The position numbers and the translations under genes were made by a program. A stretch of 64,000 bases of DNA from Aliarcobacter sp. Lineage in GTDB: Bacteria; Campylobacterota; Campylobacteria; Campylobacterales; Arcobacteraceae. Positions within the stretch are counted from its first letter, which is position 1, and each line of letters opens with the position of its first letter. Shown here piece by piece: positions 11,491 through 22,677 of the stretch. The stretch lies in the NCBI GenBank assembly GCA_028688995.1, contig JAQTXB010000008.1, forward strand, positions 57,050-121,049, given 5' to 3'. The notes under the pieces were generated by a model, which worked only from the letters and a program-made list of their open reading frames with translations, was not told the origin of the DNA and made no database searches.

Positions 11491-13734
<2,244 letters not shown>

Positions 13735-13765
13735 AAGATATAGCAGTTTTTTACTGCTATATCTT
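13735..13765. terminator. Bidirectional terminator between katG and the M14 peptidase gene
   Basis: AAGATATAGCAGT-TTTTT-ACTGCTATATCTT perfect 13-bp stem followed by ATTTTG. Confidence 0.85.
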
Positions 13766-16348
13766 ATTTTGTTTATATTCTAAAATCACAGCTTGGGAAT
13801 AATTTGGAACATCATCGTATGTAAATATTGCATAATATTTATCTATATCTGTTGCTCCAAAATCATCTAAAGTATACTCATCAATTCCTGCATAAAGTTT
13901 TTGTCCATCTTGAGCAGATAGAGGTTTTCTAAAGGGATTTTTTATTACTTTTGCACCTTTAAAATCTGGATTTTTAGGATTTGTCCAAGAGATTTTTATT
14001 TTTCCATTTTCAAGAGATAATTTTGCATTTGTAACTTTTTCAACAGGAAATCTTCTTTTTGGAATATGTTCAAGGATAAGTTTTGGACACAAAGAGTTAT
14101 TAGATACTTCCCAAGAAACTGTTTTGTTTTTTATGATTTTTACAGCTGATGTTGGTTTTAAAACAAATGAAATATCAGACTTACTTTTTAGTTTTTCATT
14201 TAAGATAATTTCAGAAAATGAATCAAACATAAAATATTGAGTTTGATTGTTTTTTAACTCTGTGGCACTCACATCATAACCGATATTTTGAATTACTTCT
14301 CTATTTGTAATATCTTCAAAATTTTTATTGATATTTTCATCAACAAACTCCAAATGAAATCTAATATCATCTTTTATATAAATTTTTGTAGAGTTTAACT
14401 CAAAATAGGCTTTTGTAATCATTGTGTCATTGTATGGTGGAAGAGACGATAAATTAAACTGAAAAGTTGAATATATTTTATTTCCCTCTTCATCAAAACC
14501 AGCTGTAATTAAATCATCTATAACCTCAGCTTTACTAACCGTTTTAATTGATTTTGCATAAAGAGTTGTAGTTGTTGGCTCTATTGTATAAGTTAATTCT
14601 AATCTTGGTCTATACGCTAATCCAAAACCAAATGAACCATAACCAATATCCCATTGCATCATCTGTTTTGTTCTTCCAATTCTTAGCTCTTTAGGCCCTT
14701 CAACCCTTAAAACTATAGTGTCATTTTTGATTGATTTTTTTAAATCATTACACTCTAAACCAGATAAAATCCAATTTCTCCAAATTCCTTGGGTTAGTTG
14801 ATGAGACTCTGTTGGACGTCCTACATATCTTATTATTTGCATATTATCTACATCATCAAAATTTGTAATATCTCCCATAGTTTCTTGATTTACAAGTCCT
14901 ATGTTCCATTCACCATATTTTTCAATAGTTGTTGAGACTCTATTTATTGGATATAAATTAATTGAAGCTAGTTTTATTATTGCATTTGATGGAAGTGATT
15001 TTACATTTATTGAAATAACTGCGTATGAAATTCCTTTATTATCATCAACTCCTACAAATAGCGAGTTTACTCCAAAATGACTAGGATTATTATTTAGATT
15101 TTCAGCCACATATCCAGTTCCTTTTGCATTTGCAAAGTAGGTTCTACTATATTCATCATATTCTATTAAAGTACGGATTTTTATTTGTGGATAAAAGGGT
15201 GATTTTTGGTTTGTTTTTTTATTTACAACTCTGATATTGTAGTAATAATCTTTATTTGAACTTAGATTTATATCATTAAATTCTAAGCTTTGAGTTTTTG
15301 TGATTAAATTTGAACTATTGCAAAATTGTTTATCTTTTGTGCTTCTAAAAATTTCAAAATATATATTTTTGTTTAATTCATAATCCCATTTTAGATTTAC
15401 ATGATTTGAGCCAATTTCTGTTGCATTAAAAGAGTTAACTCTCTTCATAATATTGTCTTTTGCGTAATTATCAACTTCTTTTAGTGCATAAATAAGTGCT
15501 GGAATATGTTCTCTAATATTTTCATTCATATCTTCCATATAATCACTTATATTTCTAGTTCCAACTTCTACAACAGATGAAATAATGCCATTGGAATAAT
15601 AAAACTCTCTAGCACTTCCTGAGATTAATTTTGCTGGTGGTTTACCTTGATGTATTCCATACTCTTTACCTGATATTTTTCTAATCTCTTCGGCCATATT
15701 CGCACATAAAGTATTCATATCCGTTGTATCAATAGTATCTTCATGTCTAAAGTCATGGGCTGGAAAAAATACATTTCCTTGACTATGATAATCTAAAGCT
15801 ATTGTAATATTTGAATGACTTAAAACAAAATCCCTAAGAGCTTGGGTTTCAGGTTCAGAAAATGGTTCAGGTCCTCCATAAACATTTGAAGTTGTAGCAG
15901 TTGATTTTACAAAACCTATAGGAAAGTTTCTATTTAAATCAACTCCATAAGTTCCATCAGCATTTTGTCTTCTATTTTTTCTCCAAAAAGAGAAGTGTTT
16001 TCTTGAATACTCATAACCATCAGGATTGACACAAGGAACCATATAAACTGTACTCTCATTTAAGTAAGTTTGTAAAGTAGGGTCAGTTTCAAGATTTTTC
16101 AATACATATATTGCAAATTCAATAGCTAATTCATGACCAATCCACTCTCTAGCATGAATAGTTCCCGTATAAAATAGTGCTGGTTTTGAGTCAGCTGTTT
16201 TAATGTTTTTTGAAATTGTGATTAGATTTATCTCTCTATTTTCCCAAGTATTACCTATTGATTCAATTTTGAAATAATTAGGATATTTAGCTTCTAATTC
16301 TTTAAAAATATTTGTTGATGCTTCATATGACCTATATAATCTTTTCAA
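13757..16348 (-). CDS. M14-family zinc carboxypeptidase with fibronectin-III-like and DNRLRE-like domains (863 aa)
   Basis: M14 residues: GTIHAREWIGHELA (HxxE), NPDGYEYS, DLNRNFP, LDYHSQG, SVVEVGT; downstream beta-rich repeats (ISINVKSLPSNAIIKLASINLYPI; FQFNLSSLPPYNDTMITKAYFEL) resemble DNRLRE; C-terminal fn3-like region. Confidence 0.85.
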   Translation of the reverse strand: MKRLYRSYEASTNIFKELEAKYPNYFKIESIGNTWENREINLITISKNIKTADSKPALFYTGTIHAREWIGHELAIEFAIYVLKNLETDPTLQTYLNESTVYMVPCVNPDGYEYSRKHFSFWRKNRRQNADGTYGVDLNRNFPIGFVKSTATTSNVYGGPEPFSEPETQALRDFVLSHSNITIALDYHSQGNVFFPAHDFRHEDTIDTTDMNTLCANMAEEIRKISGKEYGIHQGKPPAKLISGSAREFYYSNGIISSVVEVGTRNISDYMEDMNENIREHIPALIYALKEVDNYAKDNIMKRVNSFNATEIGSNHVNLKWDYELNKNIYFEIFRSTKDKQFCNSSNLITKTQSLEFNDINLSSNKDYYYNIRVVNKKTNQKSPFYPQIKIRTLIEYDEYSRTYFANAKGTGYVAENLNNNPSHFGVNSLFVGVDDNKGISYAVISINVKSLPSNAIIKLASINLYPINRVSTTIEKYGEWNIGLVNQETMGDITNFDDVDNMQIIRYVGRPTESHQLTQGIWRNWILSGLECNDLKKSIKNDTIVLRVEGPKELRIGRTKQMMQWDIGYGSFGFGLAYRPRLELTYTIEPTTTTLYAKSIKTVSKAEVIDDLITAGFDEEGNKIYSTFQFNLSSLPPYNDTMITKAYFELNSTKIYIKDDIRFHLEFVDENINKNFEDITNREVIQNIGYDVSATELKNNQTQYFMFDSFSEIILNEKLKSKSDISFVLKPTSAVKIIKNKTVSWEVSNNSLCPKLILEHIPKRRFPVEKVTNAKLSLENGKIKISWTNPKNPDFKGAKVIKNPFRKPLSAQDGQKLYAGIDEYTLDDFGATDIDKYYAIFTYDDVPNYSQAVILEYKQNKI

Positions 16349-16352
16349 GAAC

Positions 16353-17849
16353 TTATTCTCCTATTTTTAATCGGGATTTTAATTGGGCAAATTTATTTTT
16401 ACCAATTCCTTCTATATTTTTCAAATCCTCTATATCTTTAAAATATCCATGTTCTTCTCTATAATCAGAGATTATTTTTGCAAGTTTTTTACCAATACCT
16501 TTTATTTTTCTCAAATTATCTTTATCAATTCTATTTATATCTACTCTCATATCATCAATATTTCTATCCCAAGATTTAAGCATTTGCTCATCTATAGCTT
16601 CAAGTTCTAATAAATCAGAGCTATCAGTAATGATATTGTCTTGTAGATACTCTTGGATTTGTAAAGCTAAATCCTCTTCCATTCCATAAAGAGTCATTAA
16701 ATCAGTTAGTGTTGCATTATTGAAATTTATTTTGTTTATTTCAAATATCTTATCTTTTGTATAAACTTTGTTAGCCTCTAATTGTATACAATCTTCTGGT
16801 TTTTGAGGAACATCTGATTCATTCGATAAAAGTGCTAGTTCCATTTCATAGGTATCTTTTTTATCATTGATAAAATACTCACCATCATAACTAGCTGTAT
16901 ATTTACTAAAGCCAATATGTCTTAAAGTTCTTAATAAATTTGAATCAATTTTTCCTAACTCTTCCCAAGAAAATAGAGGAATATGAGGTTTGCTAAATCT
17001 TCCTTTTGAAAAATCCCACATTAAATATTGACAAATCCAATCTCTAATATATGGAAATGCAGCAAAAGCAGTTGCACACTCTAAAATATAAGCTTTTCCA
17101 GTTTTTGCACAAATAGCAATATCACAAGCCCAATATTCAGCTTTTGCAGCTTTTGAAGCCTTTACGGCTAGTTCTAGCGCATTCATTGGAACATTATCAT
17201 AAGACATTGAACCACCTTGTGAAGTGTTTGTAATCCATTGGTTTTTACCTGAATATCTCCAAAAGGCACAAATTGGTTTATGACCAATAAGCATTACTCT
17301 AATATCACCAGAATCTTTTAAATCAATGGCATTTTGAGTATAAATTGGATTGTATTTTTTCTCATCAAGAAGTTTTTTTGCTTCTTTGAAATTATTAGCT
17401 TTATGTACAAAATATCCACCGTAATTTGATGGTCCGTAAGATCTTTTGATGATTTGAGGATAAGAGGCTTTCTCTTTTAAATATTTATAACCTTTTTCTT
17501 TATCATAAAATATTTTTGTTTTAGGAATTGCTAAATCAAATTTTTTACAAAATAGGGTAACATTTTCTTTAGATTTATTTGAAAATTGTGTTTCAATAGA
17601 TGGAACAAATCGAACATTTGGTAACTCTTTTGATATTTCCACAAAGGTTTCATAGGCAGTTGCTGGAATATTCCCAACTAGAATCTCAATTTTTTTTCTT
17701 TTTACCTCTTCAATAAATCTTTTCTTATCATTTTTCCAATGATATGTAACAGATTCTATTTTGTCAGGCCAACCTTTGAAATTAGATTTATTAAAGAATT
17801 GTAATACGAAATCTAAATATAAAAATCCTATTTTTGGTAATTTTTTCAT
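16353..17849 (-). CDS. ATP-grasp domain protein with C-terminal tandem helix-hairpin-helix region (498 aa)
   Basis: ATP-grasp-like: YPQIIKRSYGPSNYGGYFVHK, SGDIRVMLIG, WACDIAICAKTGKAYILECATAFAAFPYI; C-terminus VDINRIDKDNLRKIKGIGKKLAKIISDYREEHGYFKDIEDLKNIEGIGKNKFAQLK is ComEA-like HhH. Confidence 0.8.
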   Translation of the reverse strand: MKKLPKIGFLYLDFVLQFFNKSNFKGWPDKIESVTYHWKNDKKRFIEEVKRKKIEILVGNIPATAYETFVEISKELPNVRFVPSIETQFSNKSKENVTLFCKKFDLAIPKTKIFYDKEKGYKYLKEKASYPQIIKRSYGPSNYGGYFVHKANNFKEAKKLLDEKKYNPIYTQNAIDLKDSGDIRVMLIGHKPICAFWRYSGKNQWITNTSQGGSMSYDNVPMNALELAVKASKAAKAEYWACDIAICAKTGKAYILECATAFAAFPYIRDWICQYLMWDFSKGRFSKPHIPLFSWEELGKIDSNLLRTLRHIGFSKYTASYDGEYFINDKKDTYEMELALLSNESDVPQKPEDCIQLEANKVYTKDKIFEINKINFNNATLTDLMTLYGMEEDLALQIQEYLQDNIITDSSDLLELEAIDEQMLKSWDRNIDDMRVDINRIDKDNLRKIKGIGKKLAKIISDYREEHGYFKDIEDLKNIEGIGKNKFAQLKSRLKIGE

Positions 17850-18775
17850 TTTTCATTTTCCTTTTTAATAGTTTTTCTATCTATTAAATCAACGATTAAA
17901 TCTATTTTCTTATCGTTAAAATTTAAGCCCATTTTTTCTTGTTCAGGAGTTGCAAAAGCAGGAATTCCATTTACTTCTAAAACTATATATTCCTCTTTTT
18001 TTCTATCAAAAATAATATCAACACCAGCAATATCTAATCCTAAAGTTTTAGTAGCTTTTATTGCTAGATTAACAATCTCATCATTTGCTTCTCTTAAAAA
18101 TACACTTCCACCACTTGTTACATTTGTTTTCCAATGTCCAGTTGCTGCTTTTCTTCCATAACAGCCAACATATTGTCCATCTACAATATCTACTCTATAA
18201 TCTGTGTTATCATAATCAACATATTTTTCCACATAAAAATGCTTAAGATTTATTTGGCTTAAAAAAGGAATTAACATATTTAATGCTTCTTCATTCTCTA
18301 TTTTTGTAACTCCAATTCCTCCCCAACCATCAACAGGTTTATATACCATTTTCTCCCATTTTTTCATGATAGTATTTAATCTGTGAGTATCATTGCTGTG
18401 GCAAAGTTTATAATCAGCTGTTCTTATTCCATGTTTTCGCAAATAAAATGAAGTTTGAAATTTGTCTTCACTTAATTCAAAGGCTTCATAAGAGTTTATC
18501 ATTGGAATGATTCTATTTAGGGCTTTATATAAATAGACTTGATATGGAGTTTGTTCTCCTGCGTTGTAAGAAAAAAACAGATCTAATTTATCAAGTTTTA
18601 CATTTTTATCTTTCATCTCATAAATAATATGACCATTTTTTGCAATAGCATTTTTTAAATTTACATTTGCGAGAACATCAATATCTCTTTCTTTTAACAA
18701 CTTAATCATTTTTTTTTGAATTTGCTCTCCACCACTATTTTGATATAACCACATACCAATATTTCTTTTTCCCAT
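17846..18775 (-). CDS. ATP-grasp domain ligase (RimK-like fold)
   Basis: WEKMVYKPVDGWGGIGVTKI, DNTDYRVDIVDGQYVGCYGRKAATGHWKTNVTSGGSV, GLDIAGVDIIFDRKKEEYIVLEVNGIPAFA (canonical E-x-N). Confidence 0.85.
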   Translation of the reverse strand: MGKRNIGMWLYQNSGGEQIQKKMIKLLKERDIDVLANVNLKNAIAKNGHIIYEMKDKNVKLDKLDLFFSYNAGEQTPYQVYLYKALNRIIPMINSYEAFELSEDKFQTSFYLRKHGIRTADYKLCHSNDTHRLNTIMKKWEKMVYKPVDGWGGIGVTKIENEEALNMLIPFLSQINLKHFYVEKYVDYDNTDYRVDIVDGQYVGCYGRKAATGHWKTNVTSGGSVFLREANDEIVNLAIKATKTLGLDIAGVDIIFDRKKEEYIVLEVNGIPAFATPEQEKMGLNFNDKKIDLIVDLIDRKTIKKENEK

Positions 18776-18786
18776 TTTGTCCCCTT

Positions 18787-19881
18787 TTATAAATTTTTTT
18801 GAAAATGATTTAATATTTCTGTTGTAAAAGCTATTCTTGACTCAAAACTACTTTTTAAAGCTCTCTCTTTTATAGTGTGATCACCATCACCAAAAGGTCC
18901 AAAACCATCTAAAGTAGTTACTCCACAACTAGCAACTATATTCGCATCACTAACACCACCTCTTTTTTCAGTCAAGATTTTAGAGTTTGTGATAGTTTCT
19001 AACTCTTTTATTAATTCCAGTTGTTTGGGATTTTCTTGCATTACATCTCTTTGGATTGAACCACTTAAAGTTGAAATAGTTCCACTAACATAAGAAGTGT
19101 TTGTGATTTTATTTAAGGCATTTAAAACTCTTATTTTTTCATCATTTGTGGTGTATCTAATTTCTAAAAGTAGTTCGCATTTTGGAGAGATTGTATTTGC
19201 ACCAATTCCACCATTTATTTTTCCAACATTAACTGTTGTTTGAAGTTCTAAATTTGTAAGTTTTACTAACTCTTGAAGTTTATAACTAGCTTCTAAATTA
19301 GCATCAATTCCTTTATCATAATGATTTCCAGCATGAGCTGCTAAGCCATCAATAGTAATTGTAAAAGTTCCAACACCTTTTCTTTGGGTTACAACTTCCA
19401 TATTAGTTCCTGCTGCTTCAAAAACAAAACAGTAGTCATAACTTGGTGCAAGTAAAGCTGTTATCTCTTTTGAATCATCACTTCCTGTTTCTTCATCGGA
19501 AACCAGTAAAAAGTCTATATTAGATATTTCATTATTTTTTTTGTGTATATTTCTTAAAGCTTGAAGGGCAACAATATTTCCACCTTTCATATCACAAACC
19601 CCAGGTCCATAAACCCAAGTTTCATCTTGAAAAAATCCCTCAAAACTATTTGGTGGGAAAACAGTATCATTGTGTCCTAATAAAAGTATTTTTTTTCCCG
19701 ATTTCTTTTCAGAGGTAAAAAGTAGATGATTACCAATTAGTTCTTTTTTATAAGTTGTTAACTTAAAGCCTAACTCTTCTAGCCATTTAGACATTATAGA
19801 ACCAACTTCATCTACACCTTTTTTATTTTTTGTATATGAGTTGATACTAATGATTTTTTCTAAATCTTCTAAATAATTCAT
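18787..19881 (-). CDS. M20-family metallopeptidase (carboxypeptidase G2/ArgE-DapE-like)
   Basis: LLLGHNDTVFPP, GPGVCDMKGGNIVALQAL, LVSDEETGSDDSKE, GLAAHAG, GPFGDGDHTIKE. Confidence 0.9.
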   Translation of the reverse strand: MNYLEDLEKIISINSYTKNKKGVDEVGSIMSKWLEELGFKLTTYKKELIGNHLLFTSEKKSGKKILLLGHNDTVFPPNSFEGFFQDETWVYGPGVCDMKGGNIVALQALRNIHKKNNEISNIDFLLVSDEETGSDDSKEITALLAPSYDYCFVFEAAGTNMEVVTQRKGVGTFTITIDGLAAHAGNHYDKGIDANLEASYKLQELVKLTNLELQTTVNVGKINGGIGANTISPKCELLLEIRYTTNDEKIRVLNALNKITNTSYVSGTISTLSGSIQRDVMQENPKQLELIKELETITNSKILTEKRGGVSDANIVASCGVTTLDGFGPFGDGDHTIKERALKSSFESRIAFTTEILNHFQKNL

Positions 19882-20164
19882 GATACATCCATTAGTAAGG
19901 TGAACAATTTTATTTGTTAAAGATTACAATTAAGAGACAATTACAGTCGGGTTACAAAAGGTAAGGAATATAAATGAAAGTGAGGATATAGAAGAAAACA
20001 TACAATATTAGGATATTTTATCTCTTCAAAATATGATGACATAATTAAATCTATAAATAAGAACTTTATCAAAAATTAGAATCAAAGAAAGAATTGCAAA
20101 ACTAACAGATGATGAATATAATCAAGTAATTGAAAATCTTTGTAAAAATTTTCATTAGGAGATT

Positions 20165-20397
20165 ATGATGTTAATAGGATATGCAAGAATTTCAAGAACT
20201 TAAAAGATGCTTTGCAAAAAGCTAGACTTGAAACTGCAAAAAAAACTTGGTCGTGTTGCTGGAAGAAAAAGAACTATGACAGATAGTAAACTTGCAAGTG
20301 CAAAAAAACTTTTAAACTCTGGTGTTCCACCAAAGATGTAGCTAAAGATTTAGGAGTTTCTTTAGCTACTCTTTATAGATGGATTCCTGCTAATTAA
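20165..20397 (+). pseudogene. Serine recombinase (resolvase/invertase) remnant, internally deleted and frameshifted
   Basis: MMLIGYARISRT* (catalytic N-terminus start) followed by LGRVAGRKRTMTDSKLASAKKLLNSGVPPK/DVAKDLGVSLATLYRWIPAN (C-terminal HTH) in broken frames. Confidence 0.8.
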
Positions 20398-21406
20398 CCG
20401 AATCTGAAATTACTTTATTTTCTTTTAACTTACCATTATAAACATCAACTTCTTTTTTTAAATTATCAATTAAAGAATTTAAACCATCTCTTACTTCATG
20501 ATAATCAGGAGTATCTTCAGGAGGTTTATTTGCAACATAGTAATCTAATTTTTCAATTCTATCTTCAAAGAATTTGATTAAAGTATCAAAGATAAAGTTG
20601 TTGTATTCTTTAGAATCAGTTCCATCTTTTAAATTTACATCACCTGTAAAAGTAAATTTATCATTTTTATGTTCTTCAGGATTCAGTTTTTTTAACTCTT
20701 CTAGTTTTACTCCAAAATCATCAAGTAGTTTTTGGAAACTTGATGGCACTCCTTTATTTTCAGGATAACCATCAAAAATTGAAGATACCAATTCAGCTGC
20801 ATCACCGACACTTAAATTATCAAGAGTTTTTATTACAGCATTTTTTAATGGTTCATTATTGATTAGATGAAAACCATGTTGTTTTATATCTCCATAAGGT
20901 AATTGACCCATTGATATTGCTCTTTGTTTTCCATAATCAAGTAATCCTACTTGTGCATAAATCATAGCTCTTTCTGTAGCCATATCTTCACTTTCCCCTT
21001 TACCCATCCATTTTTTTACAAAGGCTTCAAACTCAGGAGCATCTTCATATTTATTCCCATTTGTTGCTTTCATCATTTGAGTTTGCCATTCGTAAATATT
21101 AGGATCATAAGATTGTATATTTTTGTATCCCTCGTAAGCTCCTGGATCGAAGTCATATTTATTCATAGTTGGATAAAGTAATTGATCTTCCCATTTAACT
21201 GGTATTGATTTTTCATAAGTTACACTTGAAGTTGAAGGAATATTTGAAGTTTCAAAGTATGCTGAATTTTTTATATCAGTAGCTTTTGATTTATCTATTA
21301 GCTTTTCAAATATACTTAAAATATCACTATTTGAATCTTCATCAACTTTTTTAGTTGATGAAGATTTTTGATATAAATTTTGTGAATAAGAATTATTTAT
21401 TTCCAT
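20390..21406 (-). CDS. Hypothetical protein (338 aa)
   Basis: Long ORF with RBS-like GGAGGAAAAT before ATG; no family recognised. Confidence 0.65.
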   Translation of the reverse strand: MEINNSYSQNLYQKSSSTKKVDEDSNSDILSIFEKLIDKSKATDIKNSAYFETSNIPSTSSVTYEKSIPVKWEDQLLYPTMNKYDFDPGAYEGYKNIQSYDPNIYEWQTQMMKATNGNKYEDAPEFEAFVKKWMGKGESEDMATERAMIYAQVGLLDYGKQRAISMGQLPYGDIKQHGFHLINNEPLKNAVIKTLDNLSVGDAAELVSSIFDGYPENKGVPSSFQKLLDDFGVKLEELKKLNPEEHKNDKFTFTGDVNLKDGTDSKEYNNFIFDTLIKFFEDRIEKLDYYVANKPPEDTPDYHEVRDGLNSLIDNLKKEVDVYNGKLKENKVISDSVN

Positions 21407-21427
21407 ATTTTCCTCCTTTATATTAAT

Positions 21428-22159
21428 CTAATTTTTAATACATCTAATTCCTCTACCAATTGCTCTTAAATCACCATTATTTTGGCTACCTGTGTATTGT
21501 TCATAAAGTAAACTTGTTCCATATTTTTGATTTGTATTATCAGGAGTTAAAGACCAACCACCTGTATAACCCTTATAATATACTTTATTTGCTGTATTAT
21601 ATGATTTATATCCATTTAATGGAAATTTTAAGACATCTATTAAATTTGTCATATTTGATGCTTCTGCAACTAATTCACTCATTGTTGGTACTCTAAATCC
21701 TACTGGACATATATATGTTCCATCTGTTTTTACTAGAAAAGAAAATCTTTTTTGTTCATTTGTGTCACCTGTTGCCCAATCATAATAGGTATTAGCTGCA
21801 TCTGTTAATACAAATGAACTAGTAGGCGTTGAAGGAGGGAATGATATTAAATATGAAGTAGTAGCACTAGATACTAACTGATGTCCATCTGCACCTCTCC
21901 CCCATTGGTAATAATCTCCAAAACAATCTTTTTGAGAAGTTTCATAAGCTAAATCCGATGGAAACATATTTCTATTTTGATCACAAGCTTTTGAAGCTCC
22001 TAAATTTCTATCTAACCATACTTTATTTGTTGTTGGTGATGTAACTTTTTTATAATTAAATCCTCTATAAATAATATCTGGTTCCTCTGTCGAAACTGTA
22101 CAGCTTCCTGTTGCATTTACGATAAAACCTTGACCTTATAAAATTAATTTCTTTTTCAT
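21428..22159 (-). pseudogene. FISUMP-domain (Fibrobacter succinogenes major paralogous domain) protein with in-frame stop at codon 8
   Basis: RBS AAAGGA, then ATG gives MKKKLIL*GQGFIVNATGSCTVSTEEPDIIYRGFNYKKVTSPTTNKVWLDRNLGASKACDQNRNMFPSDLAYE...; one reading frame over 244 codons except a TAA; ends AIGRGIRCIKN. Confidence 0.75.
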
Positions 22160-22270
22160 TTATTTCCTTTATGTAGTACTAATAAAAGTATATAAATATC
22201 TCGTCACAATTAGTGTCACAAATTACTAAATAAATTTTTTAAAAGAGGAATTTCTAAATTTTTTATAATT

Positions 22271-22338
22271 TGTTCTGATATTTAGTTAAATTTTGTTCTG
22301 ATATTTAGTTAAATTTTGTTCTGATATTTAGTTAAATT
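22271..22338. repeat. Three tandem copies of a 23-bp unit (TGTTCTGATATTTAGTTAAATTT)
   Basis: TGTTCTGATATTTAGTTAAATT begins at 22271, 22294 and 22317. Confidence 0.95.
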
Positions 22339-22345
22339 AGGAAGT

Positions 22346-22465
22346 ATGTTTATGCCACTTATAAAAATTCTTACTTATACTCAAAAAAAAGAGTTTAAAG
22401 AACCACCTGTTTTAAATCAAGAATTAAAAAGTGAAGTTTTTAAATTACCAATTGAGTTAGAATAA
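22346..22465 (+). pseudogene. Short ORF (39 aa), possible N-terminal remnant of a Tn3-family transposase
   Basis: AGGAAG RBS then MFMPLIKILTYTQKKEFKEPPVLNQELKSEVFKLPIELE*; resembles the DUF4158-type N-terminus from memory only. Confidence 0.35.
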
Positions 22466-22653
22466 CAAGTTTATTCATTGCAAGAATAGAAACAAATAAA
22501 AAAGAGTTTGAATTTAATTTAGAGAAAATTATTGATTTTAAAGTGAAAGATAATTAGAAGAGATAGAAAAACCATTTTAAAGTTCTTCTTTAGTATTTTA
22601 AGCTTAGTTTAAATATTGTTGGAAAAAATCCCTTTATAGGTCTATCCCCAATA

Positions 22654-22674
22654 TAAGGTGGAAAATCCACCTTA
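22654..22674. terminator. Hairpin downstream of argG
   Basis: TAAGGTGGA-AAA-TCCACCTTA perfect stem next to the argG stop. Confidence 0.65.
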
Positions 22675-22677
22675 ATA

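Follow-up and report, generated by a model that had tools for sequence, protein, structure and literature searches.

The window analysed here, a 64,000-nucleotide stretch of Aliarcobacter sp. (GenBank assembly GCA_028688995.1, contig JAQTXB010000008.1, positions 57,050 to 121,049), carries four adjacent genes encoding an M20 metallopeptidase, two ATP-grasp ligases (ATP-grasp A and B, here AGa and AGb) and an M14 zinc carboxypeptidase, which together form a mobile cassette, gained and lost as a whole, whose site is empty in congeners without it. The odds are about even (probability roughly 0.5) that this cassette encodes a cytoplasmic cycle by which an acidic (Glu/Asp) amide is made and unmade. 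In such a cycle AGa would use ATP to join amino acids of the glutamate type (or aspartate) to a carboxylate, AGb probably being its partner ligase; M14 would strip C-terminal acidic residues off the product, its tail of beta domains probably holding a large or polymeric substrate, and M20 would hydrolyse the smaller N-acyl-glutamate or dipeptide pieces. A single chemistry, in which acidic residues are added at the expense of ATP and taken off by hydrolysis, is proposed because the set combines two glutamate-family ligases, an acid-selecting carboxypeptidase and a glutamate-carboxypeptidase-like enzyme. The sequences show the genes, their co-inheritance and families, the active-site residues and the specificity residue of M14; the Glu/Asp building block, the cooperation of AGa and AGb, the cytoplasmic location and the biological role are inferred.

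The four gene families are each known singly, and no description of the M20-AGa-AGb-M14 combination was found in the open-access literature searched, within which it is apparently undescribed. The cassette is a conserved and self-contained unit that has moved laterally in a phylum whose vent, sediment and host-associated members are important. From its residues follows a specific and cheaply testable prediction: acidic amino acids would be attached in an ATP-dependent reaction and removed in a zinc-dependent one. An earlier note on this DNA had suggested that the two ligases and two carboxypeptidases may synthesise and trim a peptide metabolite or an amino-acid tag; this suggestion is partly supported: it survived every test applied to it and is narrowed to acidic amino acids by the specificity residue of M14, the profile cut-off passed by AGa and the resemblance of M20 to carboxypeptidase G2 (CPG2).

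Co-inheritance and mobility of the four genes

AGb and M14 were each searched in 397 Campylobacterota genomes; AGb is present in 53 of them, belonging to 25 of 68 genera, and M14 in 54, the two occurring together in 52. At the loci obtained with AGb, AGa adjoins it in every case (30/30), and M20 and M14 are visible wherever the locus of about 4 kb extends far enough, with one exception (L025, genome G249) in which M14 sits on a separate contig. A scan of the genome collection gave 326 relatives, the best 80 of which were retained. About 65 of these 80 hold the complete set in the order M20-AGa-AGb-M14, so the doubt raised in the earlier note, that the genes might prove not to be conserved together, is answered; the remaining loci are mostly truncated at contig ends. 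Since the same order recurs in scores of genomes, it is not a product of chance. Three lone AGb copies (L088, L128, L130) come from assemblies that carry cassette genes on another contig, and in the wider loci the four genes alone are in common, the neighbours differing from genus to genus.

Among 52 AGb-bearing relatives M14 was found in 51 and AGa in 50. The AGb-bearing genome devoid of M14 (G037) has a broken AGb fragment with internal stops; this remnant (G037:C1:157122-157466), in a genome that lacks AGa as well, represents a decayed cassette. In four other genomes (G319, G333, G009 and G343, Sulfurimonas-type ones among them) the locus consists of M20-AGa-M14, with AGb at another place in the genome; that AGb is retained although unlinked, where M20-AGa-M14 stay together, speaks for a functional and not merely positional linkage of the genes. 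M20 is divergent in one sub-clade and in Photobacterium, and the mirror-tree distance correlations, moderate overall (0.36-0.67), are not taken as strong support. Additional AGa copies stand in tandem with the cassette at L072, L089 and L070, which are third-ligase variants; at L070 the second AGa is followed by a diverged AGb-like fragment.

The empty site is found in congeners. In the cassette-free genomes G291, G337, G315 and G106 argG is followed after about 90-115 bp by a gamma-carbonic-anhydrase-like gene, and in G374 and G370 the four genes lie between these two. In the M14 tree, some forks of which have limited support, Sulfurospirillum arcachonense is nested within the Arcobacteraceae, and Thiomicrorhabdus with one Desulfuromonadales genome is nested among Helicobacteraceae/Sulfurimonas sequences, as lateral transfer would predict. 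Outside the Campylobacterota the cassette is rare and occurs in Desulfuromonadales, Thiomicrorhabdus and Photobacterium; samples of 369 gammaproteobacterial genomes and 247 from the Desulfuromusa phylum yielded no further cassette genome beyond the two centres. A phage origin was rejected, AGb having no match in phage or IMG/VR viral collections; the structural matches of M14 to viral proteins consist of phage-encoded M14 enzymes and Ig/FN3 tail proteins with low TM-scores, and are uninformative on this point. Most of the named hosts come from marine, vent or saline settings.

In one Sulfurimonas/Helicobacteraceae lineage the cassette lies downstream of a putative ffh-rpsP-KH-rimM-trmD-rplS series, recognised by eye (L043:4384-13973, L085:4069-14123). 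In Sulfurimonas-type genomes the relocated AGb is beside or near a putative efp gene for elongation factor P (L049:8103-10180, L130:8352-11407, L048:5573-11156), once about 40 bp downstream of it on the same strand, efp being called by eye and not by profile; this proximity may reflect a link to translation or chance synteny.

Residues and folds of the encoded proteins

The assignment of the four proteins to the M20, ATP-grasp (twice) and M14 families, made in the earlier note from the letters of the sequence, is upheld by domain profiles. The M14 protein matches Peptidase_M14 at 5e-61, and the zinc ligands H65, E68 and H188 (H69, E72 and H196 of carboxypeptidase A, CPA) as well as R123, N139, R140 and E261 (CPA R127, N144, R145 and E270) are kept in 72/72 homologues, the residues that anchor the C-terminal carboxylate being thus as invariant as the zinc ligands. 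The residue equivalent to CPA position 255, which determines the specificity of the S1' pocket, is R247; 71 of the 72 homologues have Arg there and one has Lys. Within the CPA/B subfamily an Arg at 255 makes the enzyme specific for acidic C-terminal residues (PMC9925722), and carboxypeptidase O (CPO), which has Arg255, shares this acidic specificity (PMC6214572). Owing to the Arg/Lys at this position, M14 is predicted to cleave C-terminal Glu/Asp; the pocket was assigned from sequence because parts of the active site are modelled with low confidence.

In the AlphaFold model (mean pLDDT, the predicted local distance difference test score, 83.8) the catalytic domain of M14 (residues 1-295) is followed by an FN3 domain, two DNRLRE-like beta domains and a terminal FN3-like domain, giving a tail of about 560 residues. 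The enzyme thus resembles the CPA/B subfamily, especially CPO, in its zinc ligands, in the equivalents of R127, N144, R145 and E270 and in the Arg at 255, and differs from it in having Lys/His for Tyr248 and the FN3/DNRLRE tail, in lacking a signal or pro-peptide and in its location in a bacterial operon; a functional analogy can be drawn with the deglutamylating CCPs. Hydropathy gave no signal peptide for M14, and neither signal peptides nor membrane spans were found in the cassette proteins.

The M20 protein contains the Peptidase_M20 and M20_dimer domains, and its di-zinc and catalytic residues H70, D72, D97, E130, E131, E155 and H335 are conserved in at least 98% of homologues. Its nearest solved relative is CPG2 (1cg2, E 1.9e-23), an M20 enzyme that takes C-terminal Glu off folates and has the same catalytic residues; the similarity is only moderate (86.7 bits), and the cassette enzyme differs from CPG2 in the absence of a signal peptide and in its position in a ligase operon. 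M20 is a glutamate-carboxypeptidase-like enzyme with a putative Glu-cleaving activity.

AGa has a RimK ATP-grasp domain and scores narrowly above the cut-off of TIGR00768, the RimK family alpha-L-glutamate ligase profile (145.3 bits versus 143.4); its metal motif is the canonical LEVN, with E267 and N269 in at least 98% of homologues. AGb is more divergent and falls below the same cut-off (66.3 bits). It consists of a RimK-type ATP-grasp domain (residues 1 to about 330) and a helix-hairpin-helix (HhH) tail of the HHH_3 type (about 390-495); the RimK domain is found in 36/36 homologues and an HhH-type tail in most, the N-terminal two-thirds being strongly conserved. The usual E-x-N metal motif is replaced by an invariant LECATAFAAFP. 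A structure search with the AGb model (pLDDT 79) returned ArgX, LysX and RimK as the closest folds, which are glutamate or aminoadipate ligases. Neither cassette ligase has the Arg that RimK and LysX carry in the [S/T]N-x-x-RGG motif.

Several known systems were compared with the cassette and rejected. The RimK/RimABK system shares the fold of both ligases and the RimK family membership of AGa; by contrast, the cassette has no S6 tail to extend and no RimA or RimB alongside, and its ligases are partnered with M14 and M20 hydrolases. Glutamylation of S6 was rejected, the tails of this protein showing no pattern with the cassette: it ends in -AN, -K or similar in 14/15 cassette-bearing and in all cassette-free Arcobacteraceae examined. 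The remaining cassette-bearing genome (L156 in G218, a small-genome Arcobacteraceae relative) has an S6 with a long Thr/Glu-rich tail, different from all others examined. The cluster for the osmolyte N-acetylglutaminylglutamine amide (NAGGN) follows a similar logic, with an ATP-grasp ligase and a peptidase yielding a small acidic/amide peptide; the cassette has neither its asparagine-synthetase-like amidotransferase nor a GNAT fusion, and the cut-offs are missed by far both for the NAGGN GNAT/ATP-grasp synthetase (TIGR03103, AGa 30.8 versus 569) and for the GAK ATP-grasp family (TIGR04356, AGa 58.2 and AGb 40.4 versus 300).

The acidic cycle and competing explanations

As product of the acidic cycle, an oligo- or poly-acidic peptide metabolite, serving as compatible solute or nitrogen reserve, is preferred, with a reversible acidic protein tag in second place. 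Three points favour the peptide or polymer over the tag: a co-conserved target gene is lacking, S6 tails do not change with cassette presence, and the beta domains of M14 resemble modules for holding large substrates; a solute or reserve would fit the mostly marine, vent or saline named hosts. Under a more ambitious version, put forward tentatively, the cassette would be a new bacterial acidic-polymer or polyglutamylation system, spreading among marine Campylobacterota, in which the two RimK-like ligases build oligo- or poly-Glu/Asp on a primer or protein and the acid-specific M14 with its beta domains, together with M20, recycles it, a logic comparable to that of cyanophycin storage and of tubulin polyglutamylation and deglutamylation. 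If the prediction of acidic addition and removal is right, either marine sulfur bacteria have a new peptide metabolite or reversible polyglutamylation has a bacterial counterpart.

Several observations weigh against the acidic cycle. In AGb the metal-binding Asn is replaced by Ala259 in 36/36 homologues, D243 and E257 being retained, so that judging from these residues AGb could be a non-catalytic partner. In M14 the Tyr248 of CPA is not kept, position 240 being K, H or another residue in the sequence alignment, and FN3/DNRLRE domains are commoner in surface proteins than in the cytosol. With regard to co-inheritance, G381 has M20-AGa-M14 with no AGb detected, G256 carries M14 alone, and the evolution of AGa in some clades does not keep pace with that of the other genes (distance correlations 0.36-0.43). 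Moreover, the cassette has no co-conserved gene for a substrate, a transporter or an acceptor; the presence of BCCT transporters (12/15 versus 12/28 within the Arcobacteraceae and 3/38 outside) showed no clear association with it and does not separate the cassette-bearing genomes, and the osmolyte variant draws entirely on impressions of habitat. The M14 of G256 (L177, G256:C7:99090-101669) is of the cassette type and has no other cassette gene nearby.

The alternative that survives best is the reversible acidic tagging of proteins, which is regarded as rather doubtful. AGa and AGb would add Glu/Asp to a C-terminus or side chain, AGb would be brought to the ribosome or a nucleoprotein by its HhH tail, and the addition would be removed by M14 (helped by M20), in the manner of TTLL and CCP enzymes on tubulin. 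RimK-type ligases do modify proteins, the S1' Arg of M14 is that of acid-specific carboxypeptidases, most AGb homologues bear HhH domains, and in the Sulfurimonas type the cassette follows the putative rplS operon and the relocated AGb is beside the putative efp. However, this adjacency to translation genes is limited to one lineage, no target gene is co-conserved, and the C-terminus of S6 is non-acidic and alike in cassette-bearing and cassette-free genomes, save in L156.

A mobile stress or defence cassette of other chemistry, in which AGb, directed by its HhH tail, would act as a kinase or as a ligase of nucleic acids and M14 and M20 would be accessory, is unlikely. The joint gain and loss of the genes, the empty site and the HhH tail itself agree with it, and kinases and RNA ligases are also found among ATP-grasp folds; yet PADLOC gave no match for any of the four proteins, which led to the rejection of known anti-phage defence, the phage and viral collections gave no matches and the neighbours are mostly housekeeping genes in the loci read.

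Very little probability is given to an amino-group-carrier pathway of the LysW/ArgW type, in which a ligase would load the C-terminal Glu of a carrier and M20 would free the product, as in LysX/LysK, where the release step is performed by M20 enzymes. This pathway was raised by the best structural matches of AGb, ArgX and LysX, and by the ..GE ending of AGb in the Arcobacteraceae. It was dropped since this ending is missing in the other clades and no conserved small open reading frame (ORF) lies in the cassette or within 1 kb of it, a carrier elsewhere in the genome not having been searched for. Furthermore, unlike the LysX/ArgX system, which shares with it an M20 enzyme, the cassette contains no enzymes acting between loading and release, its AGb lacks the metal-binding Asn, and its additional M14 would be left unexplained.

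Clusters of ATP-grasp enzymes and peptidases that modify and mature a precursor peptide exist among the ribosomally synthesised and post-translationally modified peptides (RiPPs) of the graspetide kind. This is the least probable explanation, given that no conserved precursor ORF was found in the gaps or 1-kb flanks of 72 cassettes and no transporter, that the cassette proteins are 43-98% identical across three phyla, unlike fast-evolving peptide systems, and that a graspetide survey makes no mention of M14, M20 or Arcobacter (PMC8939145). The small-ORF clusters that did appear were restricted to the flanks of 11-15 of the 72 loci, each cluster in a single lineage, and resemble shadows of the genes next to them.

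Layout and surroundings of the locus in the window

The ORF check agrees with the tight succession of the four minus-strand genes described in the earlier note (Table 1).

Table 1. Cassette genes and adjoining features, in coordinates of the window.
Feature	Position	Strand	Remarks
M20 metallopeptidase gene	18787..19881	minus	364 aa; carboxypeptidase-G2-like
AGa, RimK-type ATP-grasp amide ligase gene	17846..18775	minus	309 aa; starts 11 bp after M20 (11-bp gap)
AGb, divergent RimK/LysX/ArgX-like ATP-grasp gene	16353..17849	minus	498 aa; 4-bp overlap with AGa
M14 zinc carboxypeptidase gene	13757..16348	minus	863 aa; TTG start; 4 bp after AGb (4-bp gap)
Bidirectional intrinsic terminator, common to M14 (-) and katG (+)	13735..13765	both	fold z = -7.0
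katG	11527..13734	plus	
argG to M20 interval	19882..22677		
Serine-resolvase remnant	about 20.2-20.4 kb	plus	frame-shifted
Repeat of roughly 23 bp	about 22280-22340		three tandem copies, between argG and M20

The bounds indicated for the operon, a strong terminator on the katG side and decayed mobile DNA on the other, are both present. The terminator has a 13-bp stem with T-runs on both strands and overlaps the final codons of M14, and the resolvase remnant reads GRVAGRKRTMTDSKLASAKKLL and STKDVAKDLGVSLATLYRWIPAN. Neither bound belongs to the operon itself, because in most Arcobacteraceae relatives the cassette lies directly between argG and the gamma-carbonic-anhydrase-like gene; in this genome the stretches with katG and with the resolvase remnant have been added, one on either side of the cassette. 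A scan for consensus promoters showed no excess, with 42 seen against 40.6 expected.

On the katG side, the insertion separates the cassette from the gamma-carbonic-anhydrase-like gene, and katG does not occupy that position in the relatives read. The interval between argG and M20 is specific to this genome and comprises, with the resolvase remnant, a 338-aa ORF having no family match and a FISUMP-like ORF of 179 aa.

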